Positions 1 through 25,556 of a DNA stretch of 25,556 bases are shown here, piece after piece. Within the stretch, counting starts at the first letter, position 1, and every line of letters starts with the position of its first letter. The stretch spans positions 1 through 25,556 of the forward strand of contig JAQMWT010000665.1 in the NCBI GenBank assembly GCA_029834535.1, given 5' to 3'. Made by a program: the position numbers and the translations under genes. The notes below the pieces were generated by a model that made no database searches, was not told the origin of the DNA, and saw nothing but the letters and a program-made list of their open reading frames with translations. The DNA is from Chrysophaeum taylorii. Taxonomy: Eukaryota > Sar > Pelagophyceae > Pelagomonadales > Pelagomonadaceae.

Positions 1-469
1 TCTCTATTGTCGGGATCTCGACCTTCATCGCTTCGTTGTCCTTTAGGTGCTCGGGGATTTGCGGCAGCGGTACCCCCCCTTCGTCGCGTGGCCATCTACG
101 GCACATCGAACTTCGCCTCGTATTTGAAGCGCACTTTTGGCTTATTCTTGTTTCTCGGCTCCTTCGTTCGTCGTTTTCGTTGAAGTGCTTCGATGAACGA
201 ATCGGCGTCGGGTGGGTCCCTAGCGTAAGAAGAATGTGACATCCCCGGTGCGGGCTTGTCCGGCGAAACGCGGGGTTTGGGAGGCTCCCATTTGGCTGGG
301 TCGTACAACTCACGTTTCGAAATGAACGACACGACGTTGGTGTCGACGTTGAGGACGGGCTGGTCCGGGTTAATGGTGTCCGATGGAAACGCAAGAACTA
401 TCTCGCACGGATCGTCGACGCGGCAACAAGCGTTGTCACGGACAGCGCCGGTGTTCCGCCAAGGCGGAG
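1..469 (-). pseudogene. Methyltransferase-RT linker and extreme N-terminus of reverse transcriptase, truncated by window edge
   Basis: This region continues the Pol reading of the minus copy after methyltransferase motif X. It contains the blocks VRFKYEAKFDVP and then, in another frame, GVPLPQIPEHLKDNEAMKVE. Both match the plus copy around 22018-22140 (VRFKYEEKFDVP and GVPLPQIPEHVKDNDAMKV). The Trp codon after FDVP in the plus copy is a TAG here (positions 96-98). A run of seven C on the plus strand near 75-81 coincides with a frame change. These blocks sit just before the RT palm in the better copy. The rest of RT, RNase H and integrase would lie left of position 1. Confidence 0.8.
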
Positions 470-1330
470 GCACGTTGTTGTGGAACTGGCACGTGAGTGT
501 GGCGAGCGTGTCGGGTGGTATCGTGGACGCGAGGTGCCTGAAGCGATCCGTGATTGTTGTGTTCAGCCAATTGAAGTCGGCTGGCATTGTCAGGAGAGTT
601 GGGTCATCTCTAAGGAGGGCGGTTTGGCGTCAGAGCGGTGCGGACAGACTCGTAGCGAGTGGCGGGTTGCGTATACGCCGGTTCCGTGGCGAAACGGCAA
701 TCACCGCCGTGGTTGATCTGGATGAGCCCCTTTTCATCCGGGTATCCGAGTTGGGCGCCGAAGGCTTCCTGAAGAGTCGGCCAGGTCTTATCGACTTCCT
801 GAAAGGTAAGCGGTTGGCTTGAGATCAGCAGCCGCCAGCCTGTGCTCATCAATCCGGTCGTAAGTGCAGAAGAAGAAGCAGAAGACGGTAACGTATACGG
901 AAGGGTACAGGCGAGAGACTTGCGTCAGGAGTGTGGGCTCATGCTCGACTAGCCGGCGTCGCACTCAGGACTTCCGAAAGAGGGTGAAACTCCAGTTGGT
1001 GGCGGTAACCCTTTTTCCAACATCGCGCGAGGTAAGGTTTGCGTGGGACGAGTGGACACACGGACGCCCACAATAAGGGCGTTCGACCATTCGTCCCGCG
1101 GCAGATAGCTCTCGATCAGGTTGAGCGTTGTCTAGTACTTTCCTCAGGGCGTGTGCTGGACTCCCGGTACGTCAGGAAAGTTGGCCTGATGCACCTTGAT
1201 CGCGGTTGCTGAGGAATCGATGGTTAAAAAGATGCGGAAGGAGGTCCCGTGACGCTCGTTGGCTAGCCGTATCCGAGGGTTCTTCCGCCCACGCCGGCGG
1301 AGCACATCACCACGTTGGTGTGAGTGACAG
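470..1330 (-). pseudogene. Retroelement C5-cytosine DNA methyltransferase, decayed copy
   Basis: Translating the minus strand in pieces recovers the whole domain. Motif I region: VVMCSAGVGGRTLG (FSGAGG in the other copy). Motif II region: TSFRIFLTIDSSATAIKVHQ. Then VHSSHANLTSRDVGK, RLLISSQPL (motif VIII side), DAKPPSLEMTQLS (motif IX side), MPADFNWLN and LASTIPPDTLATL (motif X). Each matches the plus-strand methyltransferase at 20793-21650 at the same relative place. The catalytic Cys codon seems to remain, but the preceding Ser-Pro-Pro codons are hit by a short deletion and the frame is broken. Several stops occur, so no protein can be made. The copy shows that the domain was already in the common ancestor of both elements. 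Confidence 0.82.
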
Positions 1331-1413
1331 GGTTATACTCGAGTCGGCTGTGGTGCTGGAGAATGTCCTCGCGGGTTTTCTCGCGGGAGGGGCGCCGAGC
1401 GTCCGTGGACCCG

Positions 1414-2583
1414 TCATCCGGCGTTCGTGGACGCAACATCGTCGGAGGTCTTCTCGTCGGGGTCGCCGACAGAGGAAGTCTTTTTGAGTCGATCACTGCC
1501 GGTCTGTGCTTCGTTGCTTGTGATCGACACCGAGAATGCGGCGGAGCTCGTGGCGTCGGCCGAGTCGTCGTCGATCGTCGGTGTCGCCTTGAGTTCCTCG
1601 GCGCAGCGGACGATATTGCCCTGCGCGATGCGGTGGCTGAGTACGAGAGGTCCACGATGGCGGCCTGGGCTGGCTTGGTCGTGTGTCGAACAGGTTCCGG
1701 CCACGACCCCGACGTGCTCGGTACACGACGCGGCTGCCACGAAAGCGAGTCCCGGGCTCGTCGAGGGCGAAAGCGTCACGGGTACGTTGCAAGTACGGCC
1801 GGGTTGCACCAGTACTGTCCGTTTGGCATATGCGCACACGGGCTGTGTCGAAACGCGCGTCAAGCGGCCTGGAAGATCGGGCGTTTTGCCGATCGTCACG
1901 CTTGCGAGCGATCAAACTGGCGGTGGCTGGTGCAGATCCTGGATAGTCCATTCCGGCCGCAGAATTCGTTTGCCGCGATTGCGCTCGGCTTCGGCGATCG
2001 CGGTTTGCTGTCGGGCATAAATTTGGCGCAATGATTTGCTCATCCTCGTAAAACGCGTGGTGAGTCATCGTGGGGGGCGACACTTTTTCGTCCGCGGTAA
2101 GTCATCGTTCGCCGCTGGTAGGCGGCCTACGAGCCGAGGGGGAAATTGCGGATCTTAGGGAAAGTCCACGACCGACCCCAAGGCTTCAGTGTTGCGACAC
2201 CCAAGAAGGAAGAGCTTGTTGGCGTCGGCAACGATGCCGACTATGAGCACCGTCATCTCGTAGGTGATGGTGAGCCGTACGACGAACCACTCGCCAATCC
2301 GAGTTTGATTCTTTCCGGGGCCGTACAGCGTGCGACTGAACGCCAGCGTTCCCTGGTCGATGATCATCTCTTCTTTATCGGAGTTGGCCACTAGGTCGCG
2401 ACAGATGTATGTCACGTCCGCCATGCCGTCCACGCCCACCGCTGTGCGGAACGATCGTCCGCTGGTCGGAGAGAGGACGTGAGCGGGCGTAAAAGTCAGC
2501 CGTCCGGGGTCTAAGCAACAGATGGTCTTGAGTCCTCTCTCGACCCGCTCTTGACGTCGGGCGAGATCGCGGCGTGGAAACAC
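1414..2583 (-). pseudogene. Retroelement protease and post-protease beta domain, decayed copy
   Basis: The open piece 2583-2155 reads as a retropepsin-like domain. It has CCLDPG, then GVDGMADVTYICRDLV, and ends with LFLLGCRNTEALGSVVDFP, the usual second protease motif (LLG...GA.VDF). The Asp-Gly-Met-Ala sequence replaces the normal Asp-Ser/Thr-Gly-Ala and is identical in the plus copy. After an interval with frame changes (about 2150-1900), the piece 1899-1414 has AYAKRTVLVQPGRTCNVPV and LAFVAAASCTEHVGVV, matching the domain that follows protease in the plus copy. In that copy a TAA stop (20517-20519) follows the domain. Here the equivalent position reads DDDSADA without a stop, so protease and methyltransferase were probably one polyprotein. 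Confidence 0.78.
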
Positions 2584-4235: not shown

Positions 4236-6193
4236 CTAGTCGGGGTCATCGCCGAGTCGTGGGGCAGGCGAAGAGAGGACGGGCCCGGTCGGCATGTGTC
4301 GGCGGCGTCCAGTCATGGAACGTACCGTTGCTGAAGGTTTCCGTAGTGTAGGTTGTGAAAGTACAGCCGGCGCTGCCGCGGTCGTCATCGAGTCCATCGA
4401 GAAGGATCCCGCGTAGTCGACCGGCGGCGCGTCGCGCTCGGAGTCTCGATTTCGGTCCGTGTCGCAGTCGCGGTTGCGTCCGCGGCTCCGGGTGGATGCG
4501 GTGCTCTCAGCGCTGTGGCATGCCGAGCGCAATCGTGCGAAAACCTTATCGAACTAATCTAGATCGTCGTCGGTTGGAGTGGCGTCGACGGCAGCGGCTG
4601 TCGCGTTGGCGTGTCTGGTGGGTCCGGCGGGTGGCGGCGTTTGGCGTCGATTCTTCCATGCGCGGTACGACATGGACCCCTGTCCGCTGTCGATATTGCG
4701 TTTTTGTTCGATCCGAAACGAGTATCCGGCGGCCTCGTACAGGTGAGCGTGCCGTCGGCGTTCTTGACGTGTGCGTACAGGGGGTTCCCGCACGCGGCGC
4801 CAGTGTTTCTAGCCCAGCCGAACGGGTCTTTGAGCATATTGAAGTGCTTCTTTTCCTCCCCAGGCCGCTCTTGACCGTTGGTGAGGTGGAGGTTGGTTTC
4901 CTCGCGGCGGCCGCAGCGGCTTGTCCTTGGTGCGCCTGTTGTTCCGCCGGCGATCGGCGTCGCAATTGAGCGCGAGAGCCTTGACTGCAAAAGAGCTCTG
5001 TGTGGCCGGCTGAGTGAGGCGGGCTCGACGCAGCTCCTTCCGGAGGCCAAGGGCTTCACATCCCTCGATGACCATCTCCAAGATGACGACCTCGTCGAGC
5101 GAGCGTTTCGTGGCCGTGCAGTAACGTTGAGGTAAGAAAGATGTGGTCTCAGCCCGTCTTCGTCGGGACCTTGGTCTGCTTGATGTCCCGTAGCTCCTGC
5201 TAGATGTATCCGACGGTCTTGGGCAGCTGGTACGACAAGCGCAAGGTCGTCAGCACGTTCTGGACGGTGCAGAGGTTGAACGCTCAGTACCGTCGGACGA
5301 TGTCGCCATACGTCGGATCGTCGTCTGATTTTACTATATAAAAAAACCGTTCATCGAAGGGATGCTCCTCGAAGAAGGCGACTCGTTCCGTTGCGTGCTG
5401 GCGGAACGCAGGGAAATTGCGGTCGCGTGCGGTCGAGTGGAGCATCATCTTGAAGGTGTCGGGCGCGTAGTGGTAGTGGCTGCGCTCGTTCAACACCGTG
5501 GACGCGCCGATGCCGAACTGGTCCTGGTCTCGATTGTCGACTCGCAGTTTGATGGCCTCGGGCTTTACGGCACAGCGGCTGGGGTTTGAGGAGTGCGCGT
5601 GCTCCTTGAACGCTTTGGCGATCGCGGAGTCCATGAGGTTGCTCATCATCGCTAAGCTGTGGTTCAGCTCCTCTTCTCGTCCTTCATAGTCGCGCCGAGC
5701 CGGCGATGTTCGTGCGGGTCGGTGTGATTCGGCACGCCGCTACGCCGCCGCGCTTCTTCTTCACGGCGTTGCTCTTGTTCAGCGTGGTGGTGCGAAATAT
5801 CGTTTCGTATTCTTCGTCACGCTCGCGGCGTAACTGCTCGTCGTGTTCGCGGCGTCGGCGCTCGTCGGCGACGCGTCGCTCGGACTCTTGTCCTTCTATA
5901 TTTTGTTGTTCTAGTCGATCGCGTTCGTCTAGCAACCGATCTATTTGAATCTGAGCGAGTCGATCTCGTCGACGCAGCTCTTCTTTTAACGCGCGAAGTT
6001 CTGCACGAGGTTCATCTTCATCGTCTTGTTTGCGCTCGTCTTCAGAGCGTGACGTGGTGGTTGCGTGTCGCGAGGTTCTGCTCACCTCTGGCAAATCGGC
6101 GGCCGTCGGCTGGGGCTCGGCCTTCTCCTCGAGCGCCTCGATGGGGGCCGCGTGGATGTTCCGCGCCGGTGGTTCGTTGCGGTTCTCCTCCAT
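4236..6193 (-). pseudogene. Retroelement Gag, decayed copy
   Basis: The start MEENRNEPPARN at 6193 aligns with MEINADVREEE of the plus copy. A long Glu/Arg coiled coil follows (about 6040-5800; ELRALKEELRRRDRLAQ and similar). Gag core blocks are in 5649-5284 (AIAKAFKEH..., VDNRDQDQFG, YHYAPDTFKMML, FFEEHPFDERFFYI), matching NAFEKG, IDGRDQRQFN, HYSVEKLRYLL and YEELCDELPHGPSFYL of the other copy. A later piece (4900-4760) has KDPFGWARNTGAACG and HVKNADGTLTCTRPPD, matching the Cys motif region DPFLWGKRTCPHCG; here the first Cys is lost. The Arg/Ser-rich tail is near 4500-4440. Multiple stops and shifts (for example after 5284) make it non-functional. Confidence 0.8.
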
Positions 6194-6880
6194 GTCTCTT
6201 CGAACAAGTCGGCTGTTGGAACGTGCCCTCTCTCTCTTGTGGCCGTTGTTGGTGCTCGCTCGCGGGCTTCGTCGAGCGTTCGGGATGCGCCGGCTCTTTC
6301 ATTCGGCGCCAAGAGCAGCGACCTTCAGAGCATCAACCAGCTCACCCTCACCGGCATCCAGCCGAAGAAGAGCGAGACCCGCTCACACTTGACCCGAAGA
6401 TCGCGGACGAGCCTAGTAGCGCCGAGAAGCCGGCACGAACACGCAACGACAAGAAGGCGAGCGCACGAACTCGCCAAGAGAGAAGAGCCCGGCCGGGTCG
6501 TGGACAACTCGCCAGCTGTCCGCGAAGTGAATGGTGTCGCGTCTTCTCCTAGGCGCGGCTGCTACTTCTCTTCCGGCTCGGCGTGAGATCGCAATTGATC
6601 AGGCCGCGGCTCGCGCTTTGCGATTCTTGTCGTCCTCCCGCACGGGGATGCAGCTAGAGTCCCTCGCCCGGTTTAGGAGAGATCTCATGCTCTCCACCAC
6701 CTGCGACGGCAGGAAAGAAATGGGGGGGGTCCGCTTACCCTGACTCGGTCGAGATCCTCAAAGCACGGGGATGCCAGAATTTGGCAGAAAGGAGCGGCAT
6801 TCACTCTGCCTCACATAATCACCAACAGATCGCCATCTCGAGGTGCGAGCTGGCAGATAATTTATGGTGAGAATATGGGG
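6194..6880 (-). other. 5' leader and probable LTR remnant of the decayed element
   Basis: No coding sequence is supported here. Read on the minus strand, the part near 6765-6660 resembles the leader of the plus copy near 16205-16315: GAGGATCTCGACCGAGTC, a GGTAAG, a C-run, and then GTGGTGGAGAGCATGAGATC, compared with GTGGTGGAGGATATGAGATC. A shared TTGTTCGAA lies shortly before the Gag start (6199-6207 on the minus strand). The shared non-coding leader supports common descent. I could not find LTR ends, a primer-binding site or target-site duplications. Confidence 0.5.
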
Positions 6881-6890: not shown

Positions 6891-7475
6891 TCGACTGCTA
6901 AGAGGCGGAGGGCGTGTGGGTGCTTATTAGGGGTAATAAAATCGAGTGACACCTGGTGTCCTCAAGCCTGCAAGTGAGTCAAGGAAGGACGCTTGCGCAA
7001 AAAGTTAAAGGTTAGCGAACGTGCGCTGATCAAAGCAGCTTGGGTGATAATAAGGGTAACCTTAGGTGTATGGTGAGGCTCGGTTGGGCAGAGCGCGACG
7101 GACAGGTCGATTCTTCGTGGACCAACGCGTCCGCGGCCTGCGACGCTTTGCACGACCTCGCACAAGACCGCGCGCAGTGGCGGTCCACCATCAACAAGTG
7201 CGTCCTCGTCCGTCGCCCTGCCCCAACTGCGTGATTTTCCTCCTCTGTGATTCCGTACCGGCTCCTGCCGGTCCGGCCTGGCTCCCATGCTCGAGAGAGG
7301 TCTGAAGTTAGTTAGTTATGGTGAGGTTAGGAATCAGGGTAAGTAGTGCGATATAGGGTAAGGCGAACAGTAAGAGTTGCCGTTACAGTGGTTCGAAAGT
7401 TACGTAAAATTAGGTGATTTCGAAGTGCTTGACACAAGTGTCATTGGTGAGGGCTATTTTTGGCAAAGAAGAAAA
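6891..7475. other. Intergenic region upstream of the ankyrin gene
   Basis: No conserved coding sequence was recognised. The 9-mer TATGGTGAG occurs on the plus strand at 7069-7077 and 7317-7325, and again just outside the region at 6863-6871. A 13-bp imperfect palindrome (GACACCTGGTGTC) lies near 6948-6960. The ankyrin reading frame stays open back to about 7377, but the first ATG is at 7476. This stretch probably holds the ankyrin gene promoter and the unrecognisable outer edge of the left retroelement. Confidence 0.4.
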
Positions 7476-8474
7476 ATGAAGGCACGTGAGCTTGTGGTCA
7501 CCGTTGCCCAGAATCCCCGGCCTCCTGTGTCGACAAGCGCTTCGCTCTCCGCAACGAGTGTGTCCAAGGCGACGCCGTTCCGTTCGGAGGAGGTCGCAAA
7601 CGCTCGCGGCGAAACAGCGCTCCATCGCGCCGTCAGCAAGAACGACGCCAAACGCGCGAGAGTTCTCGTGGAAGCGGGCGCTGACGTCGACGCGCGCAAC
7701 AGCTTCGGCGAATGTCCGCTGCATTTGTGCGCCGCGCACAAGAGCCTCGAGGCGTGCCGCGTGCTGCTCGAGGCCGGCGCGAAGCCGACGGCGCGTAACG
7801 CTGCCGGATTCATCCCGCTAGCGCTCGCGGCCTCGTTGACGACGCGCGACGACGGCTCGACACTCGTCGCGCTCCTCGCGACCGAAGCCCCGCACACCGT
7901 CAACGCCTTCTCGGTCGGCTACACGGCGCTCCACTGGACGTGCATCAACGACTCCCCCAAGGCCACGACCGCTCTCGTACGAAATGGCGCCGACCTCGAT
8001 GTCCTCGCCGAGGACGGCCAGACGCCACTCCTCAAGGCGGCCGTCTACTCGAGCGTCGCCTGCCTGCGCCTTCTCGCAGAAGCGGGCGCCGACCTCGACG
8101 TCCCCGATAACCACCTCCGCACCGCCTGCCACTTTCTAGCTGCCAACGGCTGCGTCGAGGGACTCCGCGTCCTTCTCGAGGCCGGCGCGGACCCTTCGAC
8201 GCTCGACGACCGCCAACGCACCCCAATTAGGATGGCCTTTGATACCACGCACTTTTTGGCCGTCCACGCCCTCGCCATGGCTGACGCCTCCCTCGTGAGG
8301 ACGCGACGACCACGACCCAAATCCGCCGACTATGCCGTCAAAAACAACAGCAACGATAAGAATGAGGAGGACTCTAGAGCGACCGCCAGCACCAACCGCA
8401 AATCCGCTCCTAGCCCACCTGCGTGGTTCTATCGCATCCAGTTCCCTTTCCTCTCCGGGCCAACTACGAACTAG
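7476..8474 (+). CDS. Ankyrin-repeat protein
   Basis: The reading frame is 332 residues from the first ATG (KARELVVTV...); it is open further upstream but only with non-ATG codons. After about 40 residues rich in Ser/Thr/Val come seven consecutive ankyrin repeats of about 33 residues. Examples are ARGETALHRAVSKNDAKRA with LVEAGADVD, FGECPLHLCAAHKSLEA with LLEAGAKP, YTALHWTCINDSP with LVRNGADLD, and DGQTPLLKAAVYSSVAC with LAEAGADLD. The third is irregular and the seventh is degenerate. The C-terminal 60 residues are Lys/Asn/Ser-rich and probably disordered. Ankyrin repeats bind proteins; no enzymatic domain, signal peptide or membrane segment is visible, so the partner and role are unknown. The gene is GC-rich, intronless and intact, between a dead retroelement and a pseudogene. 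Confidence 0.85.
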   Translation: MKARELVVTVAQNPRPPVSTSASLSATSVSKATPFRSEEVANARGETALHRAVSKNDAKRARVLVEAGADVDARNSFGECPLHLCAAHKSLEACRVLLEAGAKPTARNAAGFIPLALAASLTTRDDGSTLVALLATEAPHTVNAFSVGYTALHWTCINDSPKATTALVRNGADLDVLAEDGQTPLLKAAVYSSVACLRLLAEAGADLDVPDNHLRTACHFLAANGCVEGLRVLLEAGADPSTLDDRQRTPIRMAFDTTHFLAVHALAMADASLVRTRRPRPKSADYAVKNNSNDKNEEDSRATASTNRKSAPSPPAWFYRIQFPFLSGPTTN

Positions 8475-11983: not shown

Positions 11984-12040
11984 GGCTGGGCTTTACAACA
12001 ACGGACAACTCAACGGTTTGCTTTGCGTCCAAGAAGGGAA
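11984..12040. promoter_or_regulatory. Bidirectional APH1-LSM4 promoter region
   Basis: Only 57 bases lie between the two ATG codons of the head-to-head genes, so the 5' untranslated regions and promoter must be compact or overlap the coding regions. No TATA box is visible. Confidence 0.55.
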
Positions 12041-12451
12041 ATGTTCCCGTTGTCGTTGTTGACGACGGCCAAGGGGAACCCGATGCTGATCGAGCTGAAG
12101 AACGGTGATACGTACAACGGACGGCTCGTGAACGCCGACTCGTGGATGAACATCTCGCTGCAGGGCGTTATCTGCACATCCAAAGACGGCGATCGGTTCT
12201 GGAATATCGCCGAGTGCTACATCCGAGGCAACTCGATCAAGTATTTGCGGATTCCTGACGAGATCATTGATATGGTCCAAGAGGAGGAGATGCCCGTTAA
12301 GGACAAGAACAAGAAGAGCTTCTCGCATCGCGGTCGTGGGGGGCGCGTGAACACGACTGGTCGCGGTCGGGGCCGCGGCGGTCGGGGGGGTCGCCGCGGG
12401 GAGGGCCGTGGAAACGATGGCCGCGGCGGTCCTCGCGGGGGTGCGCGATGA
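12041..12451 (+). CDS. LSM4: U6 snRNA-associated Sm-like protein LSm4
   Basis: A 136-residue protein starting [20 protein letters not shown], matching the usual LSm4 start. The Sm1 motif ([22 protein letters not shown]) and Sm2 motif ([21 protein letters not shown]) are complete, and a Gly-Arg-rich RGG tail (about residues 95-136) is typical of LSm4. In eukaryotes it is part of the LSm1-7 ring that promotes decapping of cytoplasmic mRNA and of the LSm2-8 ring that binds the U6 snRNA 3' end. The frame is open upstream of the ATG, but homology begins at this Met. The gene is intronless and intact. It diverges from APH1 and converges on the beta-helix gene downstream. Confidence 0.96.
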
Positions 12452-12796: not shown

Positions 12797-14782
12797 TCAC
12801 GGAGGTTGAGAAGGGGAATGGGCGGGTGTTGTCGGCGGCGACCTCGGCAACGCAGAAAGCGCCTTCGGCACGGCGGCGCGCGGCACGCGTTGTTGCGGGT
12901 CGCACCACGTGCCGAAGACGTGGCCCTTCGCGCAGACGAAGAGGGTGCAGCCGTCGGGGGCATCGTGGTAACGCTCGAGGAGGGATATTGGGAGGAGCGC
13001 GGGCGCCGCCGGCGGGGCTTCGAGCGCGTCGTCGACGAGGACGACGGCACGAGCGCCGCAGAGGGCGCACGAGGTGCGGGCCTCCAGTGGGGCGTCGTAG
13101 GGGTCGCCGACGAGGACGAGGTCGGCATGGACGCAGCCCCGGAGGCACCTGAGCGATTTGCCGCCGCCGTCGTCGAGATCGTTCGAGCCGAGGCCGACCG
13201 TCGCGAAGATAGCGTCGTCGAGGTCAGCGTTACCTATCGCGCTGCAACGCGCGGGTTTCTCGACTGCAAAGAAGCGGTCGGGCGCGAGTGGCGCTGAGGG
13301 CGTCGATTCGTAGGAGCTGTGGTAGAGCCGCGTGAGGTCGGGCGAGGCGTCGATCTCGTGGACGGGGACCGGGACGTGGACTAAGCCGAGGTTATCGCCG
13401 CATCGACCCGCGTACGCTCGGAAGCGGCGTTCCGAGGCGTCGAGGGCGGCGACCTCGGGGGCGAGGTCGGCGGCGAGGAGCGAGGCGGTCGTCAGGTGGT
13501 CGGCGGGGGCGAGGAGGTTGATGACGACGGGGTCTTCCGTACCACGGCGCGCGGCGTCCTCGAGCCAGCTCTTGGCGCTTCGCGCGGCCGTCATCGCTCC
13601 GGAAGCGACGGCGACCGCGCGCTCGACGGGCGCCGCGCCGGGAGCGGCGCGCGAGGAGGCGACGAGAGTCGAATCGCGGACGACGAGGGTTGCGGCGCGG
13701 GCGGGGTCGTGGGCATCGACGAAAATCGCCGCGCCGACGCCGTCCTCGACAGCCCGGCACGAGAGCGCGCTGTCAAAAACGACGAGGAGCTGGTCGGCGG
13801 ATCGCGTCGCGGCGAGGGCCGACGAGTGCTCGGCGCGCGCGACTATCTGGGATCGGCGGACGACGACGCACGTGTCGTCGCCGAGGGCCTCGACGAGCGG
13901 CTCCGGGTCCCCGACGACGTCGTCGGCCTCGACGGGCGAGGGATCGCGCCCGACGACACGGCAATCGTCAAACTCGAGGATCGCGCCCCCGACGAGCGTC
14001 GCGCTGCGCTGGAGCACGAGGTCGACGCGGTGGAACCGGACGTGTGCGGCGTCGACCAGCATCGGCGTGCACTCGTCCTCCACCACCACGACCGGCCGTC
14101 GCGTCGCGAGACCCCCGACGATCTCCACGGCGGACGCCAGCACGACGCCGTCGTCGCTCCTCGCCGGCGACAGGACGAAGGGTCCCCCGGCGCCGAGTAT
14201 CACGACGTCCCCGCCCTTGCATGCCCCGACCGCCGCCGTTAGCGTCTCGTAGTGCACCGCGTTCGACGGCGGCGGCGACGACAAGCAGACGCCCACGACG
14301 CGAGCGACGCCCCGCGACCGCGGATACGTGTCCGCGTCGGGTCCGCAAGACGCCCTGACCGCCGCGAGCCACGCCTCGTCCGCCGGCGCCTCGCGTACCA
14401 ACGCGCACCGCCGCTCGAGAACCAGCGCCCGCTCGGCCTCGCCGAGTCGACACGTTCCGCCCGCCGCCTCTTCGAGGTCGGCAAACTTGTCTGCGAGTGG
14501 CTGCGCCGACTCGCCGTGCCGACACCACCGCCGCTCGCTTGGGTGCCACCAAAACACGGGCTCCTCCTCGGTACTCTCGTGCCATCGCGGGTGGTAGTAC
14601 ATTCCCGGCGGGTGCCACACGCGCGCCCGCTTCGTCGCGTGCCTCACCTCGTCGGCGGACGACGACTCCTGCGCCTCGTCGACCAGACCGCTCGTCCCAA
14701 CACTCCCCTTGCTCGCCTTGCCTCCGTCGGGCATGACGTTCTTCAAGTCGCGGAAACAGGTGCGGTTGCCCGACTCCATCAT
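12797..14782 (-). CDS. Orphan protein with beta-helix-like centre and Cys-rich C-terminus
   Basis: 661 residues from the ATG at 14782 (an in-frame GTG lies just before). I do not recognise the gene. The N-terminal part has a Trp/His/Pro-rich patch (about 55-89: VWHPPGMYYHPRW, VFWWHPSERRWCRHGE). From about 165 to 420, short strands recur with aliphatic residues and Asp/Gly turns (GGDVVILGAGGPFVLSP, ASAVEIVGGL, HVRFHRVDLVLQ, GAILEFDDCRVVG, ATLVVRDSTLVA), like a right-handed parallel beta-helix. The C-terminal 100 residues hold paired Cys/His (CLRGC, SCALCGA, CTLFVCAKGH, TWC), suggesting a metal-binding module. There is no signal peptide or membrane segment. It is GC-rich, intronless and intact. 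Carbohydrate binding or F-box-like scaffolding are possible but not shown. Confidence 0.72.
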   Translation of the reverse strand: MMESGNRTCFRDLKNVMPDGGKASKGSVGTSGLVDEAQESSSADEVRHATKRARVWHPPGMYYHPRWHESTEEEPVFWWHPSERRWCRHGESAQPLADKFADLEEAAGGTCRLGEAERALVLERRCALVREAPADEAWLAAVRASCGPDADTYPRSRGVARVVGVCLSSPPPSNAVHYETLTAAVGACKGGDVVILGAGGPFVLSPARSDDGVVLASAVEIVGGLATRRPVVVVEDECTPMLVDAAHVRFHRVDLVLQRSATLVGGAILEFDDCRVVGRDPSPVEADDVVGDPEPLVEALGDDTCVVVRRSQIVARAEHSSALAATRSADQLLVVFDSALSCRAVEDGVGAAIFVDAHDPARAATLVVRDSTLVASSRAAPGAAPVERAVAVASGAMTAARSAKSWLEDAARRGTEDPVVINLLAPADHLTTASLLAADLAPEVAALDASERRFRAYAGRCGDNLGLVHVPVPVHEIDASPDLTRLYHSSYESTPSAPLAPDRFFAVEKPARCSAIGNADLDDAIFATVGLGSNDLDDGGGKSLRCLRGCVHADLVLVGDPYDAPLEARTSCALCGARAVVLVDDALEAPPAAPALLPISLLERYHDAPDGCTLFVCAKGHVFGTWCDPQQRVPRAAVPKALSALPRSPPTTPAHSPSQPP

Positions 14783-14951
14783 CGCCACCTTGGCCTAGCT
14801 CGCGTCGGACAATTTCACGCCGGAATTCCCGGAACTTACAACCCGTCGTTGTGTGTTTCGAACTTGAGGCCGTTGGTGCTTCCCTAGTACAGGACCAGTT
14901 GCACGAGAGTTGGCTGCAGGCCAGGCTAGTTGACTGGAGCCAGGCGGGTGA

Positions 14952-15964: not shown

Positions 15965-16722
15965 TGTGGCGGCAACTCCTGACCGCTAAGGCTTACCCCC
16001 CCTCTCTAGAGGCTTGATACCCGTTCAACGGGACACCTTTCCCGATCTTTTTAGTCACATCATACCTCTTTTTTGTGAGAAGCATTCTTGCTGTATTCTT
16101 GTAGTTTCCTTGCTATCATATTCCATCTCTCCATCTTGTTGAGAGGCTTGGTGAGAGTGAGCAAGGTGTGTGGCGAGCATATCCGACCCCGCGTCCGTGT
16201 TTTCCTCGTTCAGTGAGGTCTAGGACGAGTCGGTGAGTACCCCCTTTGTCACCCGGGGGTCGGGAAGGTTTTTTTTTTCTGTGCCGCCATACGTGGTGGA
16301 GGATATGAGATCGTGCGACTACATCGGTCGCCGACGAGCGAGTGCTGCCGTACGTGTTGTATTACGAGGTCCGGATTTGTACGTGCGCCCTGATCAAGCA
16401 CACGGAGTTCCATTGGACCGGTTTGCGTTGAGAATGTACGCGAACGTTGTTTGTGTTCGTACGATCCGAGTGACGACGAACACGCGTGCGAGTTGGAAAT
16501 CGCAGCGCATTCTCCCGGGAATTGATTTTGGTATAGCTGAACGGTGGAAGCTGTTTAGCGAGTGGGATCGCTACCCACGGGCGTTTTTGAATTGCCAGCG
16601 GATTGGAATTCCGTGAGTGCTGTTTTTACAGCGACAGATAGCGTTGTTCGAATCAACGTGAATTACTTCGAGTGATCGGATCCGGACGTGTTTTGAGATT
16701 CTTGATCGATATTTAATACGGT
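15965..16722 (+). repeat. 5' LTR (left end defined, right end not) and untranslated leader
   Basis: The left end is set by the 21-base match to 25536-25556. The right end cannot be set because the other LTR is cut off. One candidate is a CA at 16411-16412 followed by TGGACCGG, which could start a primer-binding site, giving an LTR of about 448 bp; this is weak. The leader resembles the decayed copy around 16205-16315. It contains a splice-donor-like CGGTGAGTAC at 16231-16240 and a TTTTTACAG acceptor-like site ending at 16631. A 103-codon frame from the ATG at 16305 lacks recognisable motifs and is not called as a gene. Confidence 0.7.
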
Positions 16723-18753
16723 ATGGAGATAAACGCAGACGTGCGTGAGGAAGAATCTCCTCCAGTTCTTCCCGCCGCCCCTGAGATAGGCCGCGAGGAA
16801 GGTGAATTAAGAGAGGCCGAGGCAGTCGACGTTGCTGACGTGCCCCCTGATGTGCCTCCGGATACTGCCATTTTTTCGCCGTTGAGTCCAGCGACTCCGG
16901 ATCGTGGCGAGCGTGTTACTATTGAGCGCGGATCTGCAGCCCGAAGTCGACTTCGTTAAGACCTCGAGCGGAGACGTCGCGAAAATGAACGATTAGCTGA
17001 GCTTTTTGCTCGTGAAAGGGCTGAAGCGAAAGAGGAAGCGGCTCGACGAGAAGTTGATATGCTCAATAATGATTATGATTACAGCAAGAGACCGAGACCT
17101 CGAAGACCCTACGCGAAGAGGTTGAACGATTTCGTCGTGAACGAGATGAATTGTTAGCCGAACGTACGCGTCGGGAGAGTAGCCGCGAACGACCTGTGAG
17201 TCGACCCGAACCGGAAACGCCCGTGAGGCCGCCTGAACCGGAAAGGAACACTGAAACGGGGAATGAACCTCCGCCCCGAGTCGATACGGAGAATGAGGGT
17301 AGGGCGGACATTGAGAATGAAAGTGCGAAAATTTTACGGGGATTATCGCGGGGAATATCACAGACGGTTGCCAACGCCTTCGAAAAGGGCAACTTGAGCC
17401 GATCCCATCGACCCACTTCCAGTTTGAAGCCTGATAACTTCAAGCTCGTCATCGACGGCCGAGACCAACGGCAATTTAATTTGGATTCGGCGGCGATGAT
17501 GCATACTTACTTTGGCAGATGACCATTACTCGGTCGAGAAGTTACGTTACTTACTACCTGTGCATCCACGGGACACCGTTGCACCAATTTTTGAGGGACA
17601 CTTGCAGAAATACGAGGAGCTCTGCGATGAGCTACCACACGGTCCGTCGTTTTACTTGAAATTAGATACTGACGATGAAGAGCATGGAGTCTCGGTTCGT
17701 CGTATCCGTCGTCTGAACAAGACGTATTGCGACAAGATTTTTGATTATTTTAGATCGACTTGCCGACCTCCGCGCATGCAGCAGGAGCTGCTTGACAAAT
17801 TGCGGAAGGTCACCCAGGCTTCAGTTCCGAAGAAGTCTGGGGAGCAGCACGTCCAAACGTATTGTACCCGATTCCAATCTGAAGCCTTGGAGTTTTGTTC
17901 CGTGTCCAGCCGCACGATGGATGATGTCGATATCCTCGACCAGCTTATCAGTGGGTTGATGTCCAAGGAGTTGAGGACCCGTGTGCGGACTATGAGGAGC
18001 GGACATCCTGATAGTTACGTGACTTTTAAGTCGATGGTAGCGCTTATTACGCGGCTCGAGAACGACTTACGAAAGTTGATGGAGGAGGAGAAGGACCAAG
18101 GCCCACCTAATCCGAAATCGAATAAACCGCCGCGAGGGCGGGGAGGTCGAGCTATGGCCTCCGATCAACAATCCAAGCAAGATGCGGATAAACCGTTTGG
18201 GAATACGGATCCGCTGATCTTACGAGATCCTTTTTTGTGGGGCAAGAGAACGTGCCCGCACTGTGGGTTCTTCTGGACCACGCATGATGAAGATGAACAC
18301 GGAAATCGCGTAGTTTGCAACCGCGATCCGGATCGTTACTACTGTGCGATGTGGAAGCGAATTCGTAAGCAGAAGAAGCAGCCCATATCGCGGTCCGATT
18401 GGGCGAAGCGTGATGATGCATCTCATGCGAACGCCACGCACGGATCGGAGCCTTCTAATGAAATTCAAACGGCCCTCACCGATCTTGGAACCACAACGGC
18501 GACCATGGTGAGCGAGGTCAGAAGCATCAAGGATACTACGTCGTTTTCTACACGACAGCGAGACGGACGATCACCTTCTAGACGATCGTCACGCCGACAT
18601 CGAAGCCAGAGCCCTGATCGAAAAGCCCATACTACTCAAAGCAGCCCGAGTCCTTGCCGTCACCGGAGGTCTAGTCGCAATTCGCGCCGGCGCCGACGTC
18701 ATCGACATTACGATGACGAGTATGACGGAGGCAGATATCAGGATAGTTCGTGA
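16723..18753 (+). pseudogene. Retroelement Gag (one stop and two frame breaks)
   Basis: The ATG at 16723 (MEINADVREEE) matches the Gag start of the other copy. An acidic Pro-rich N-terminus is followed by a Glu/Arg coiled coil (about 16960-17200). It is interrupted by TAA at 16957-16959 and a frame change near 17080. A further change at about 17512 joins to the long open frame ending at 18753. That part has a Gag capsid-like region (YCTRFQSEALEFC, DDVDILDQLISGLMSKELRTRV, MVALITRLENDLRKLMEEE) and then a Cys motif C-x2-C-x17-C-x8-C (18253-18345). The end is an Arg/Ser-rich tail (SPSRRSSRRHRSQSPDRK) that may bind nucleic acid. The Cys spacing is not the usual CCHC knuckle. Gag packages element RNA into virus-like particles. 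Confidence 0.85.
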
Positions 18754-20519
18754 CATTCAAGCGCAACTTTACGCGTTCCAATCTTTATGCGACGCGCCGC
18801 CAATGTCGGGGGTTGTCTTTTACCCGACGGCGCGCCCTACCCGAGTCTCCGATGATGCTGCCGATGTCGCTGTGACGAGCAGCCATCGTTTGCAACAGGA
18901 GCAACATACCACCAACGCTCGGATCGTTCGGTGGCCTTCTACATCGTATGTGAAAGCAATGTCAGATGCTACTTGGGATTCTCCGCACTACTGGGAAGAC
19001 TCAGATTCGGAGACCGACGAACCCATGCCGCAGGTTCCAGTGTCCCCCCATTCGTCAATGTGCATGTCTTGCAGGGCAGTTCACGATGATGACGTTAGAC
19101 CTTTTGAGTTGACGTCGGGGACGACGTCTTCTTTTCCTACGGCCCCCCCCCGAGACCGTTTTAGCCGTTTTAGCCGATGTTCTAGCCGATACAGTTTTGG
19201 TCGCAGCAGAGCAGACCACAGCGGCGCCGATGGAGGAGAAGTTGACGGGAATGTCCGATTTGATGGACGAGAAACGATTACCAGAAGAGATAAAGGAGGA
19301 GATATATGTGCCTCCGATTGAGAAGTGTCAGAATTTGTTGTCAGCGAAACTGGGGAATGAGGAAGCAGCCGAAGCGGCGAGCGCCAATATAGATTCAGCG
19401 GCGAGATGTAGAACGCCAGATATAGCAGCGGTGACGATGCAGATGCCGGGCGATGCTAAACCGGAGATACGATGTCATCACACTGCACTGTCGCCGAGTG
19501 ATGGGGAAAAGATCGAGCAAGACCTCATCACCATCGGTTGCCTGGACCCTGGTATCCTTACGTTTATAGTTGGTCATATTTATAGACGACGAGACGGGCC
19601 GAAGTTTGCAACGACTTTCGGCGTGGATGGAATGGCTGATGTCACTTATATTTGTCGTGGGATGGTTGAAAAACTGGAAAAGGATAGCGTCATCCTTGAC
19701 CGGGGCGATCTTCCAGTCGAGCGCACTTTGTATGGGTTAGGATTGAACAAAACGACTATCCACCAATGGGTTGCATTGCGGATTGCGCTTGCGGACGACG
19801 TTGCCGTTCCAGTTGTTGCTATTGTGGCCGATACTAATCATCTATTTTTGCTGGGAGCGCGCGATATTCGGGTGTTTGGAGCCATAGTGGATTACCCGCG
19901 GAATCGCATTGCGTTTCTACGCACACAAGTCGCTTACGGGCGCAAGAAGTTAAAGGTGCAGGATCGACGAGTAGATTCTCCGATTTTGACGTTCAGAACA
20001 ACTTATGACGAGAGCAATCCCGTGGTAGTTCAGGTTTATGGACAACAGCACCATGCGATGCAACAAAGCCTGAGCACAGTTGAGAACCGAGTCTACGCTC
20101 GCTTGTGCAAGATTGAAGACCTCCAGCGTCCACCGCCGAAACGAGCGGGAGCTTCGACGACTTGGGGAGTTCCTCCAGTTACGCCTTCTCAAAGTTCGAC
20201 CAGCGATGCTTATGAAGTGAAAGCCTATGCTGCGCGCACGATGAAGGTCGAGCCCGGGCGCACCTACTGCGTGCCAGTCGCTCTTTCAGAGCCCGTGGAA
20301 ACTGGGCAAGTTTTCGTTGCTACGTCTCCTGGGTACGAGCAACTCGGGGTAGTCGAAGGAATGTGTTCTTCTCCTGAGGATCACGATAAGCTCGCAGCTC
20401 GAGTGGCGATATCTTCTACCCAGGACGTGCCGACCGTGATCACTCAAGGTGAAGTCCTTGCTTTGGGCGATATTGTTCGTTTTGATGACGAGCTGAATGC
20501 TGTGACGGTCGACGATTAA
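18713..20519 (+). pseudogene. Gag-Pol spacer, protease and post-protease domain
   Basis: The frame opens with an ATG at 18713, overlapping the Gag end by 41 bases in the +1 frame. A spacer with an acidic patch follows. The coding frame changes at a run of nine C (19143-19151), after which ETVLAVLADVLADTVLVAAEQ leads into protease. The protease has CLDPG, TFGVDGMADVTYICRGMVEKL and FLLGARDIRVFGAIVDYPRNR, the two retropepsin signatures. The active-site triplet is D-G-M-A (19626-19637) where D-S/T-G-A is expected. Residues from about 20215 (KVEPGRTYCVPVAL, GQVFVATSPG, LGVVEGM, VITQGEVLALGDIV) form the beta domain often found after Ty3/gypsy protease. TAA at 20517-20519 ends the frame; the other copy has no stop there, and the frame continues open beyond it. 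Confidence 0.83.
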
Positions 20520-20615
20520 ACGAAGGATGGTGAAGCCGAATCTAACAAGGCTAACCTATCATTCACTGTTTCGGTCGCAAGCCATCTTACTCAAGGCAAT
20601 GCGGCTCCTGAACTG

Positions 20616-22277
20616 ATGCTTTTGAGCTCAGTGCAGAAGGCGTCTCCTTCTGCCGATAAGAAGAAGAGTTCTCGTCAAGAATCGCTCGGTAACGACGATT
20701 TCGACCGACGAACTGACGAGGAGGAAAAGAAATGCCGAGAAGTTACAGAATGCGAGATTCGCCGAAGGTTTGAAAAGGTCCACTGGGTGCCGGTCACGTA
20801 TCGCAAGGTTGTGATGCTCTTCAGCGGCGCCGGAGGAAGTACTTTAGGACTGCAACGAGCGAACGAGTTGTGCGGGACATCGTTTCGAGTCGTCCTTGCT
20901 CTTGACTCGTCAACAGCTGCCAACAAGGTTCATCAGAAGAATTTTCCGAAGATACCTGTGGTCCAGCACACGCTCTGTGGACGATATGACTCAACCCTCC
21001 GGTTGATCAAGGCTTATTTGCCTGAAGCGGAATGGTCATCGTCGATGTGTATAGCGTCTCCGCCCTGCGTTCATTCCGCACTCTGCAACTTGACATCCAG
21101 AGATGTTGGCAAGGGTGTTACGGCCACTAACTGGACGATGAAGTTGTGCAAGATGGCTGGCTTCATGATGTGGCTGATTGAACAGGAGGCGTCCATTATT
21201 TCGTATATAGCGCGTTTACACCCTTACGTGTACGTCGTCAATTTTCATGATATCACACCTACTCTGATGAGCTCTCGCGTGCGATTGTTGGTTTCCAGTC
21301 ACCCACTGCACTTGCAAGAGGCTCCGAAGACATGTGTGAACATGCAACAAAAATTTGCTGCAGCTTTAGGTTATGCTCATGAACGCCACCTTCTCCAGCT
21401 GAATAATCTTGACTCGTCCCGAGAAGCAACAGATACGGCTTACACCGTTACGCGGGTTCCTCTTCGTTTGGGACCGCATCGCTCGGACACTCAGCCTTTG
21501 ACTCTCAAGATGACGGCCGAGTTGCTCACGATGCCGGTGGATCATGATTGGGCTAGCTTGTCTAAGACAGATTCGTTCAAACATTTAGCGTCTGTCGTCC
21601 CTCCAGATACTCTTGCGATTTTAGCAGTCGATCTGCACAACTCCGTGACCAGAGGTTTCCGCCAAAGTGGTGAAGTCCTGCCGACCGCGTTGAGCCCGAC
21701 AGATCGATCCTTTGAGCAGTATTTACGAATCTCCGACACCACCTTTCGTCACGTAGAGATTCCGCTGTTAAATACGCGTACTCGTGTCGTTAAGTGGGTG
21801 TCAAAGGATGATCTCCAGGATCCCACTAAATGGGAACGCCAGAAGTTCCTATGCTTCCGCTTCCAACTGATGCGCCGGGGACGGCTCATGCTTTTTCTGC
21901 TGCCCCCGACAAACAAAGTGGACGTTCCGCCGGATCCTGAACCTGAACAGGAGCCGAAAGTAAGGAGCGAGCCGAATGTGCGCGTCAAAGGTGAAAAGAT
22001 CAATAAGAGCCACCCTGAGGTGAGGTTCAAATACGAAGAAAAGTTCGATGTGCCATGGAAGGATGCGCCGCGCGATGCGGACGGTGTACCGTTACCGCAG
22101 ATTCCCGAGCACGTCAAGGACAATGATGCGATGAAAGTCGTAATTCCGACGAAGGAAGAAGTTGAGAAGGTTGTTCGAGATCTAGGAATTCCCGACAACC
22201 CGCATCTGGATGATGATGCGAAGATGATGTTGAGCCATTGCGTGCAATACGCGTGGGCTTTCTTGATCCGATTATGA
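20616..22277 (+). CDS. Pol segment: C5-cytosine DNA methyltransferase, linker and start of RT
   Basis: 553 residues from ATG; the same frame is open from 20520, so this ATG may be internal to Pol. Methyltransferase residues about 60-345: motif I KVVMLFSGAGGSTLGLQRA (64-82), motif II around Asp97, motif IV IASPPCVHSAL with catalytic Cys151 (codon 21066-21068), a motif VI-like WLIEQE (186-191), motif VIII SSRVRLLVSS (219-228), motif IX QPLTLKMTAELLTMP (293-307) and motif X LASVVPPDTLAIL (324-336). The enzyme would transfer methyl from S-adenosylmethionine to cytosine C5. Unusual points: Val replaces Gln after Pro-Cys, ENV is EQE, and the target domain between VIII and IX is short (about 70 residues), as in compact prokaryote-type enzymes. 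A charged linker (430-480) leads to the RT start. No chromo, BAH or zinc domain is attached. Confidence 0.88.
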   Translation: MLLSSVQKASPSADKKKSSRQESLGNDDFDRRTDEEEKKCREVTECEIRRRFEKVHWVPVTYRKVVMLFSGAGGSTLGLQRANELCGTSFRVVLALDSSTAANKVHQKNFPKIPVVQHTLCGRYDSTLRLIKAYLPEAEWSSSMCIASPPCVHSALCNLTSRDVGKGVTATNWTMKLCKMAGFMMWLIEQEASIISYIARLHPYVYVVNFHDITPTLMSSRVRLLVSSHPLHLQEAPKTCVNMQQKFAAALGYAHERHLLQLNNLDSSREATDTAYTVTRVPLRLGPHRSDTQPLTLKMTAELLTMPVDHDWASLSKTDSFKHLASVVPPDTLAILAVDLHNSVTRGFRQSGEVLPTALSPTDRSFEQYLRISDTTFRHVEIPLLNTRTRVVKWVSKDDLQDPTKWERQKFLCFRFQLMRRGRLMLFLLPPTNKVDVPPDPEPEQEPKVRSEPNVRVKGEKINKSHPEVRFKYEEKFDVPWKDAPRDADGVPLPQIPEHVKDNDAMKVVIPTKEEVEKVVRDLGIPDNPHLDDDAKMMLSHCVQYAWAFLIRL

Positions 22278-23650
22278 GACCCGTGGACTCGCCACCGGTT
22301 TCTCTACGCTTTAAAGACGCAAACCCACGACCGATCAAGATGACGCCTTATAGGTTGACGCCAGCAAAGCTCGAGTGTCTCAGAAAGCAGATCACTGAGT
22401 GGTGTCGCGATGGAGTCATCCGACCGGCGAACTCTCCGTGGGTTTCCTGTACTGATGCTGCCTAAGAAGGAGCCGAGGCCGGGACGTCGAATGCTTTTCG
22501 TGCTGCCGTTGACTTGCGTCAGCTCAATGATCAGCTGGTCAATGACAGTTGGCCGAATATTCGTCAAGATGATGCTTTGGCTTTTCTTGCCATGCGCCGT
22601 TGGCGGACGTGCATTGATATTCGATGGGGTTATCATAACTTACGTTTGGACGCCGCTGCTCAGGACGCTGTTACTATGGTTAGTCCACGTGGAGCCCATA
22701 GTTTCTTGCGCTTGCCTCTAGGAGTAAAACAGCAGGAGCTCTCTTTTGTAAGCAGATGGCGAGCGATTTGTCCACAATGATGTATAAGGACCTGGTCGCG
22801 TTTGTCGACGATATTATGATGGGATCGGATGAACTCCATCGACATTTACAAGTTTTGATTGAAGTGTTGTGCCATTTAGCACAGCGAGGATATAGTGGAC
22901 GAACTTCGAAGTTCCACCTCCTCAAGGATGAAATCGAGTTTTTGGACATATTTCGACTCCGGAAGGCTTGAAGCCGAATCCCAGACGTTAGAGGTTGAGC
23001 GTTGCAGCAGATGCCGATTCCCGGTACGTTGCCCAATACGTCCCCGAAGACCCAGATTCGATCTTTCATTGGTATGAGCAACTATTGCCGCCGATATGTG
23101 AAGAATTATTCGAAGATTGTGGAGCCGCTTAGGCGATTGTGTCTTGAAGGCGTTAAGTTTGAGTGGACGCCTGAGTGCCAAAAGGCATGGGACACGATCA
23201 TCGAAGCTTTGGTGGATTCTCGTGGAGTTTATCATCCTGACTACGATCTTCCTTTTCAGATCCGCTCGGATGCTTCCAAGGATGGTCTGGGTGCGTATCT
23301 TTTTCAGCTCGTGGAAATCAAGGACGAAACTGGCAAGGTGACACGAGAGGAACGAGTAATTGAGTATTGGAGCCGAGCTGTGCCGAAAGAGATGCGGAAC
23401 TATGAGCCTCGCCGGCTAGAGCTCCTGGCAGTTATTCTTTCTCTTGAGCATTTCCGCTCTTATATTGAAGGTCACAAGACGATCCTTGAAACAGATCATC
23501 GCAACTTGACGTTTTTACGAAAGGCGAAGCACTCGTCTGGGCAGTTGGCTCGATGGGCGATGCGGCTCGCCAATTTTGATCCTGAATTGGGTTACAACCA
23601 GGGAAGTCGCCGGGAATGAGCATCCCTGACTGTCTCTCTCGCAATCCTAT
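22238..23650 (+). pseudogene. Reverse transcriptase and RNase H (multiple frame breaks)
   Basis: RT blocks are read across frames: PYRLTPAKLECLRKQITEWC, GVIRPANSPWVS, PVLMLPKKEPRPGRRM, DLRQLNDQLV, TCIDIRWGYHNLRL (motif A Asp), SFLRLPLGVK, TAGALFCKQMASDL, LVAFVDDIMMGS (FVDD catalytic motif, 22797-22832), then GHISTPEGLKPNP and QIRSFIGMSNYCRRYVKNY. RNase H follows in one open frame (23002-23619) with its acidic residues in RSDASKDGLGAYLF, RRLELLAVILSLEHF and ETDHRNLTFL, and ends at PDCLSR. Frame changes occur near 22262, 22445, 22508, 22725, 22955, 22990 and 23605. The FVDD box and RNase H residues are intact, so the breaks look recent. This enzyme copies element RNA into DNA. Confidence 0.9.
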
Positions 23651-25505
23651 AGATCATGTCATCGAGACGGACGAGTTTGGTGAACCCTTGAACCACGCGT
23701 ATCTAGTGTGCCAAGAACTCCCTCGTTCTGTTGATGATGAAGGAGTACCTTTACCTGGGTGCCATGTCATTCTGTCGTTTGTTACGACTGAGTTGCCTGT
23801 GGAGGAAGAGGAGGAAGACCTCGATGATCCGATGCAATTGGTCACGTCTCATGCTACGAAACAACGTCAGAAGCAACGACTTCAGCAGACCCAGCCTAGT
23901 ATTTTCCGTGATGCCGATGATTACCAAGAGTACATCGACAAGATTCCGGATAATTTGACTTTGGAAGAGATAGCCAAAGAGCAGATCACTGATGCTACTT
24001 GCGAGGACATTCGTTATCGCATGGCTCAGGGCCATTCTCTTCGTCGGTACGGAGCCAATTATCGCTATCAAGTGGTGAAAGGAGTTCTCTACCGTGCCGC
24101 ACGACTTGCACCCGATGATAGTCGCACCCCGAACTTTACGGACGCGCATCATCCGATTGTACCATGACACACCTCTCAATGGTGGTCATATGGGTCGTCA
24201 AAGTACAGTGCAGTCGATACTTGAACGTTTTTGGTGGCCTCATATGTCTAATGAGGTGGGTGCTTACATTGCTGGTTGCATAGTGTGCAAGAAAGCTCGT
24301 ACGCCTGAACCAAAGAGAGCAGGTCTGCTTCAGCAACCGGTGTATGATGGTGATTGTGTCGTCCTTTGTATGGATTTGTTTGGACCTTTGCCCAGTGCTG
24401 GTCCCGAGACATATCTCATCGTCTTTTTTTGATCCATTTTCTCATTTCTTGATTCTTGACGTACTACACCATAAGACTGCTGAGTCAATCCTCGAGTCTT
24501 TTGTCGCGAATATATTACTCAAAGGTTATCTACCTCAGAGGATTCGTACCGACAATGGGAGGGGTTCGTCAACAAGTTGATGGGAGAGTTTGTCATCTTT
24601 TCAATGTTCGGTATAGTACCACGATTCCGTATCATGCTCAGGCTAATCCTGCGGAAAGGGTCAACCGCTTTATCAAGGCTTTCCTCCGTGCGTGCCTTCA
24701 AAACCGCAAGATCACGGAATGGCCCGAATTCGCGGAGTACATTGCTTTCTGTTACAATCGTAAATTTATTCCGGGACTCAGATCTCACCTTTCATGCTTC
24801 GTCTTAACCGGCAGCCTTTATTGCCAACCGATTACACGATCATGGATCTTGATGTCCGCCGCCTGCCGAAAACTCGCTCCGATGTTGTGGCAGAGACTCG
24901 CGAGAGGCTGAAGTTCTATACCGCTACGGTGAACGAAGCTCGTGAGAAGGCTCTTCGTAAACAACGTCTCGCCTATAATGCGGACCATGTTGATGTGGAG
25001 CTCCCCTGTGATGGTTTCTCCAGTGGTCGATCGAGCTGTGCCCAAGCCCAAGGAGACCTTTCGGGATGATTACAAGCATGGTAAGTTCGTTATCTTTCGG
25101 ATTCCGGATAATAAACGGTCCGATTGGCGAAAGAAGATTTATGTCGCTGAAGTTTATGAACCCTATGATTTTGTGAATGATCGAGTCGCTCTGCATTTCT
25201 ATGCTGATCTCGGTCCCCATGACAAGGTTTCTTATTACAAGCCTACCTCACATCTCTCTACTCGCAAGCTTAAGCCGGAATACAAGGACGTGGACGGTCG
25301 CAGTTTCACCGACAAGACCAAGGTCAACAACAGTACCACTCCTTGTGTCACCGACTTCGCCCCGCATGAGATCGATGTGTTGATTCCTAAGTTCACTTTG
25401 CGTGGTGGACGCGTTCCTGAACCTGTCGTTGAACGTGCCTACAAGAAGATTCGTTCTCGAGATGCTCATTCAGCCAAGGCTCGTGCTTCTCGCCGGACTC
25501 GCTGA
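23616..25505 (+). pseudogene. Integrase and C-terminal module (multiple frame breaks)
   Basis: After an acidic linker (VEEEEEDLDDP), the N-terminal zinc-binding HHCC is read as LYHDTPLNGGHMGRQ, RFWWPHM and GCIVCKKAR (24150-24300). The core has its first Asp in CMDLFGPLPSAG, its second in RTDNG and its Glu in YHAQANPAERVNRF, the D-D-E triad of retroviral integrases. SPFMLRLNRQPLLP follows. From about 25005 a basic module of roughly 165 residues closes the protein (GKFVIFRIPDN, KKIYVAEVYEPYDFVNDRV, LHFYADLGPHDK). It occupies the place of a chromodomain in chromoviruses, but the aromatic-cage pattern is not recognisable. Frame changes are near 24130, 24430 (seven T), 24560-24590, 24785 and 25005. 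The stop is at 25503-25505. Confidence 0.87.
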
Positions 25506-25535
25506 GGGCAGCTCGTGTTCTCACCAGGGGAGTCC
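25506..25535 (+). other. Possible polypurine tract before the 3' LTR
   Basis: Between the last stop codon and the 3' LTR is a short stretch containing CCAGGGGAGTCC. The purine run AGGGGAG ends a few bases before the LTR, where a plus-strand primer is expected. It is short, so the call is tentative. Confidence 0.4.
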
Positions 25536-25556
25536 TGTGGCGGCAACTCCTGACCG
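25536..25556 (+). repeat. Start of 3' LTR, cut by the window end
   Basis: These 21 bases are identical to 15965-15985, begin with TG, and directly follow the Pol end and a purine stretch. The remainder is outside the window. Confidence 0.9.

Follow-up and report, generated by a model that had tools for sequence, protein, structure and literature searches.

A divergent C5-cytosine methyltransferase-like domain in the Pol region of a Ty3/gypsy-type retrotransposon of Chrysophaeum taylorii

The window analysed here is the stretch of 25,556 nucleotides at positions 1 to 25,556 of contig JAQMWT010000665.1 (assembly GCA_029834535.1) of the pelagophyte Chrysophaeum taylorii. It contains a Ty3/gypsy-type long terminal repeat (LTR) retrotransposon in which a methyltransferase (MTase) is encoded within the Pol frame, after a protease-like region and before the reverse transcriptase (RT). 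The element consists of the following features.

15965..16292, + strand: 5' LTR, TGTGGCGGC...GCCGCCATA (21-base start repeated at 25536; end placed from the paired LTRs of other copies)
16723..18753, + strand: gag-like region, frame broken (position and open reading frames only)
19470..19940, + strand: protease-like region (motif by eye; homologous to 2158-2550 on the - strand)
20520..22277, + strand: open frame, MTase and linker into RT (open reading frame list, Pfam)
20808..21641, + strand: C5-cytosine MTase domain, motifs I-X (Pfam, own profile, alignment)
21066-21068 (Cys), 21180-21182 (Glu), 21276-21278 and 21282-21284 (Arg), + strand: MTase catalytic residues
22355..23151, + strand: RT, split over two frames (tblastn with the RT of a sister copy, 79-80% identity)
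23164..23577, + strand: RNase H (PF17917 98.4 bits, PF17919 86.8 bits)
24127..24303, + strand: integrase zinc-binding domain (PF17921 66.7 bits)
25526..25535, + strand: purine-rich AGGGGAGTCC, polypurine-tract-like, directly 5' of the 3' LTR (sequence)
25536..25556, + strand: 3' LTR, first 21 bases only (exact match to 15965-15985)

RT, RNase H and the integrase zinc domain follow each other in the Ty3/gypsy order. A first-pass annotation had described LTR ends, Gag, protease, RT, RNase H and integrase around the MTase. The 5' LTR was recovered, RNase H and the integrase zinc domain were recognized by Pfam, and RT was identified through the sister copy (PF00078 gave 13.4 bits in the window, below cut-off, versus 52 bits in the sister). 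Gag and protease found no Pfam counterpart: neither the 417-codon open part of the gag-like region nor the protease-like region, in the window or in the sister copy, gave a match. We take the latter to be protease-like by eye, from retropepsin motifs; sequence homologous to it occurs at many places in the genome. Pfam detected no integrase catalytic core in the window. The 3' LTR is reduced to 21 bases, the contig ending inside it (25536-25556), as expected where an assembly breaks at a repeat. The AGGGGAGTCC tract also precedes the 3' LTR in copies C16, C126, C686 and both C5 copies. The window copy itself is broken, with RT in two frames.

Judged by its sequence, the domain is a divergent, complete-looking C5-cytosine MTase-like enzyme. 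In the window frame PF00145, the DNA_methylase family, reached 24.6 bits, exceeding its cut-off of 22 (26.8 for the domain alone), and it matched all 14 aligned copies at E up to 1, its best stretch covering motifs I-III only. A profile of our own, built from 54 C5-MTases (5 of 59 were removed by a motif filter), gave 30.6-39.4 bits for the same 14 copies, versus 3.2 for the best of 1000 full-length shuffles. It aligned the domain from motif I to the PPC of motif IV, and motifs IX-X separately and weakly. The C-terminal half alone gave no Pfam or PHROGs match in the four copies tried; with our profile, 13 of 14 copies scored slightly above the best shuffle (3.3-9.3 bits) and the fourteenth scored 0.4.

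MAFFT alignment with 16 C5-MTases (22 rows) left G26, G28, P105, C106, E144, R176, R178, P185 and P262 invariant; a 19-row version had P192 in place of P185. The S-adenosylmethionine-binding motif I, the catalytic Cys (IV), the Glu (VI) and Arg-x-Arg (VIII) thus occur in order, and they are invariant in the 22-row alignment and in the subfamilies 1 and 2 and the lineage 4 described below. The motifs I, II, IV, VIII, IX and X read in the first-pass annotation are borne out by Pfam, profile and alignment alike, with motif VI (IEQ for ENV) as an addition. Its limits for the domain, 20793-21650, also fit, motif I beginning at 20808. The canonical letters PCQ, ENV and GN.VP are replaced by PCV, IEQ/EQE and ASVVPP, which makes standard chemistry less assured. 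It does not call homology into question, since by our reading such letters vary among remote members.

The 70.8 Mb genome was then searched for further copies. The 585-residue segment has at least 75 matching places, and the subfamily-2 MTase at least 119. Comparison of the first 100 of 150 RT places with the listed MTase places revealed an MTase upstream in 55, with an MTase-RT gap of 605-625 bp in 51 of these (other gaps were about 330, 640, 760 and 810 bp). Four of the other 45 RT places were fetched, and all four hold the MTase (two frameshifted, two partial in order); C310, one of the remaining 41, is also among the places matching the 585-residue segment. No MTase-free sister element was seen in these four, the other 41 and RT places 101-150 being outside this check. 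A single open frame spans MTase and RT in two copies (3063 and 3067 codons).

Subfamilies 1 and 2 share about 79% identity in the MTase, and the MTase of lineage 4 is 44-50% identical to both. Among five lineage 4 places fetched, C405 is open throughout and the others are frameshifted or partly deleted; C266 is without the motif VI Glu. The two best gave no Pfam match; our profile gave them 21.2 and 19.1 bits versus 4.1 for the best of 2000 shuffles, with no score for the C-terminal half alone.

Both ends of nine copies were fetched for LTR comparison, the contig of a tenth being too short. An LTR pair was found in seven: C5 (100% identity over 336 columns), C126 (99.4%), C164 (98.3%), a second C5 copy (98.2%), C310 (92%, over 215 columns only), C686 (90%) and C16 (86%). 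C524 and C407 showed no pair within the stretch fetched. The LTRs end in TG..CA in subfamily 2 and TG..TA in window-type copies, and in C164 several LTR-like copies lie side by side at the element ends. A 5-bp target duplication, CTTAC, flanks C126; none was seen in both C5 copies or C16, and C164, C310 and C686 were not judged. One copy combines identical LTRs with the 3067-codon open frame; recombination may have touched the identical-LTR copy, because no target duplication is visible.

Selection was assessed by NG86 medians of the ratio of nonsynonymous to synonymous divergence (dN/dS), using 14 of 29 subfamily-1 loci and 8 subfamily-2 loci of our choice. Between subfamilies the ratio was 0.055 for the MTase (112 pairs), 0.024 for RT (109 of 112) and 0.125 for the linker (112), low values that are only rough because dS is near saturation. 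The corresponding ratios were 0.277, 0.225 and 0.424 within subfamily 1, and 0.173, 0.072 and 0.278 within subfamily 2. The family is old with some recent-looking copies, and its MTase is under purifying selection.

With many copies, a fixed position, several lineages and purifying selection, the MTase belongs to the element. We hold its C5-MTase identity and integral position to be very likely. The low Pfam score of the window could have suggested that the motifs arose by chance, or that the domain is foreign to the element and came in by a single secondary insertion; copy number, fixed position and alignment refute this, leaving it a negligible probability. The domain is likewise not the single-copy secondary insertion that the first-pass annotation had named as fatal to its proposal.

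A second, decayed element of a further diverged lineage occupies 1-6300 (- strand) of the window, in GC-richer DNA (0.604 vs 0.512). Two of its parts were recognized.

360..1367, - strand: decayed pieces of the same MTase, 34-61% identical (E 2e-42)
2158..2550, - strand: protease-like region (48.9% identical to 19470-19940)

Apart from one partial match (69%), nothing close to this second protease-like region was found elsewhere. Host-like frames lie at 7374-8474 (+), 11993-12451 (+) and 12797-14794 (-); by eye they are ankyrin repeats, an LSm4-like protein and a long open frame.

PF00145 marks 57 places in the genome, 55 of them in addition to two host genes.

L031:2822-3901: host DNMT2 gene (PF00145 search; single gene here)
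L032:3968-9499: host DNMT-SNF2 (DNMT5-like) gene (PF00145 search)

Six of the 55 were fetched (C96, C314, C120, C582, C4 and C326), and each contains a further MTase, the same one in all six, with PCQ and ENV in canonical form (four aligned). This family may number up to 55 places, and DNMT1 or DNMT3 genes may lie among the other 49. Since RVT_2 follows the MTase in two long frames (133 bits in C96, L036; 98 in C314, L038), the family is a Ty1/copia element. An rve match of 17.2 bits, below cut-off, was found in C96 only. The MTase sits between a protease-like region, recognized by eye only, and integrase. An LTR pair (89% over 208 columns) accompanied by a target duplication, CTCAC, was found in C96; C314 has shorter repeat pieces and no target duplication was seen there. 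The dN/dS of the copia MTase was 0.10-0.20 in five pairs with dS > 0.5, and 0.5 in the closest pair, where one of the two sequences contains a garbled stretch. A common origin of the gypsy and copia MTases is unsupported by these sequences, because hhalign gave no match between them and the tree group uniting them has 24% support and also includes a phage enzyme. What appears to be new here is that this genome also harbours a Ty1/copia family with a C5-MTase not detectably related to that of the gypsy family.

Relatives of the two MTases were sought widely. None was found in 5.8 billion proteins, by searches that depend on exact words in common and on a similar length; one of them scored only its best 7995 candidates. 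Scans of viral contigs with both MTases (the bacterial genome collection being outside their scope) and tblastn of 'phages' gave no relative, and the tree does not place the gypsy MTase. The prokaryote-type character and the capture separate from published ones that the first-pass annotation suggested are no more than possibilities. The gypsy MTase is accordingly described here as a new orphan enzyme, without relative in the searches made. In the literature searched, we recognized no publication on this gypsy family.

The kind of system is already known, since DNMT-bearing retrotransposons, one Gypsy included, have been published (de Mendoza 2018, PMC5890265, of which the passages on these elements are used here). 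Those passages establish retrotransposon DNMTs, suggest cDNA self-methylation, and provide the precedent for capture to which the first-pass annotation had appealed, a Gypsy element with DNMT3 in Pol. This KnitGypsy-Dnmt3, from the charophyte Klebsormidium nitens, resembles the present family in being Gypsy-type, in its cytosine MTase in Pol and in purifying selection; by description only, it differs in its DIRS-like repeats, against paired LTRs here, and apparently in its enzyme, a DNMT3 there and an orphan here. In Symbiodinium, SymbioDIRS-Dnmt3 carries a DNMT in the Pol of a DIRS element and SymbioLINE-Dnmt an orphan DNMT in a LINE reading frame. Many retrotransposon DNMT copies are a shared trait, but these are other retrotransposon classes, and SymbioLINE copies are CG-poor, which gypsy copies here are not. 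The Dam-like adenine MTases of DIRS elements, cited in the same paper, are also DNA MTases in retrotransposons, but act on adenine and are structurally unrelated. The present system differs in its apparently orphan enzyme, its ordinary LTRs and the second superfamily alongside. An earlier copia capture may already have been published, because a sentence in PMC12344493 places some DNMT3s in 'LTR Copia and DIRS' elements; it cites the 2018 paper, whose corresponding passage says Gypsy.

What the enzyme does for the element is less certain. The roles named in the first-pass annotation (self-restraint, protection of complementary DNA (cDNA), marking of target chromatin) are guesses, and CpG decay, the one genomic signature tested, was negative. 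We give about an even chance to our preferred explanation as a whole, in which the gypsy element uses its Pol-borne MTase to methylate its own cDNA. The MTase would be made along with RT and integrase, be packaged into the same particle and methylate cytosines of the element's cDNA ahead of integration; the methylated newcomer might then be taken for self DNA, or be shielded from nucleases and deaminases. This combination of a cDNA substrate with a self or protection role we rate at somewhat less than even. Several results weigh against this explanation. CpG depletion, which CpG self-methylation would be expected to leave behind, is absent: the observed/expected ratio is 1.20 for the window element, 1.16-1.19 for three stretches of subfamily 2 and 1.31 for the flanking host stretch. 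The two copia stretches, at 1.00-1.05, are below host stretches (1.31-1.44). Nor was there a CpG excess of C/T differences among gypsy copies: subfamily 1 had 0.055 at CpG, 0.039 at CpA, 0.051 at CpC and 0.064 at CpT (306 of 406 locus pairs, those at least 90% alike), and subfamily 2 had 0.046, 0.037, 0.048 and 0.079 (20 of 21 pairs). In both subfamilies these differences were commonest at CpT. The CpG data thus speak against strong lasting CpG methylation of gypsy copies; no scar of this kind would be left by a brief cDNA mark, by methylation in a different sequence context or by action on RNA. Further points on the same side are the non-canonical motifs IV (PCV instead of PCQ), VI (EQ instead of EN) and X (ASVVPP instead of GN.VP), the between-subfamily dS of about 2 for both MTase and RT, and the closeness of the MTase and RT ratios within subfamily 1. 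Structure prediction with no C5-MTases in the alignment also failed (predicted local distance difference test score, pLDDT, of 34.5); a fold search with that model was discarded, the model being useless. Finally, the Gypsy and LINE enzymes gave no methylation in yeast, a result that its authors call inconclusive (PMC5890265, passage on these assays).

Absent CpG decay also fits an MTase that acts on RNA, as DNMT2 does, either on that of the element or on the tRNA primer, and so stabilises or regulates the template. DNMT2/TRDMT1, whose substrate is tRNA, shares the fold class and a weak profile similarity: hhalign against host DNMT2 and DNMT5 gave a sensible result with DNMT2 only (E 0.0018, probability 15%, residues 20-174, motifs I-VI), and DNMT2 accounts for two of three PDB sequence matches at E up to 1 (E about 0.2). 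It differs in its canonical motifs and single gene, and is not grouped with the gypsy MTase in the tree; we consider an RNA substrate unlikely. The MTase might instead mark chromatin during or following integration, and so hold the element back or direct where it inserts, with a gain for host and element alike. The DNMT5-like gene of the host would fit, and a passage of PMC9998398 links loss of this family in a diatom to methylation loss and overexpression of young transposable elements. Inserted copies show no CpG decay, however, and any restraint is not strict, because four of the seven LTR pairs are at least 98% identical; a chromatin role is quite improbable. Equally doubtful is a catalytically dead MTase that would bind DNA or RNA as a module of Pol: three motifs (IV, VI and X) are altered and the target-recognition region is short and of low confidence, but the Cys, Glu, Arg-x-Arg and motif I glycines are invariant in the aligned copies. 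The gypsy and copia elements, which belong to two unrelated LTR superfamilies, might have independently taken up different C5-MTases, both placed downstream of the protease, because the host attacks or silences unmethylated cDNA. The MTases would then supply a self-password to a host surveillance that polices retroelements in a restriction-like way, a speculation that we regard as improbable.

Cytosine methylation is a main eukaryotic means of transposon silencing. An element that encodes a writer of this mark is therefore a puzzle, and we found few published cases of retrotransposon-borne DNA MTases. Here two subfamilies and a deeply diverged lineage have all retained the MTase, and the same 71-Mb genome houses a second superfamily with an MTase of its own. 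What such an element gains from its MTase thus becomes a question that is testable within one small genome.
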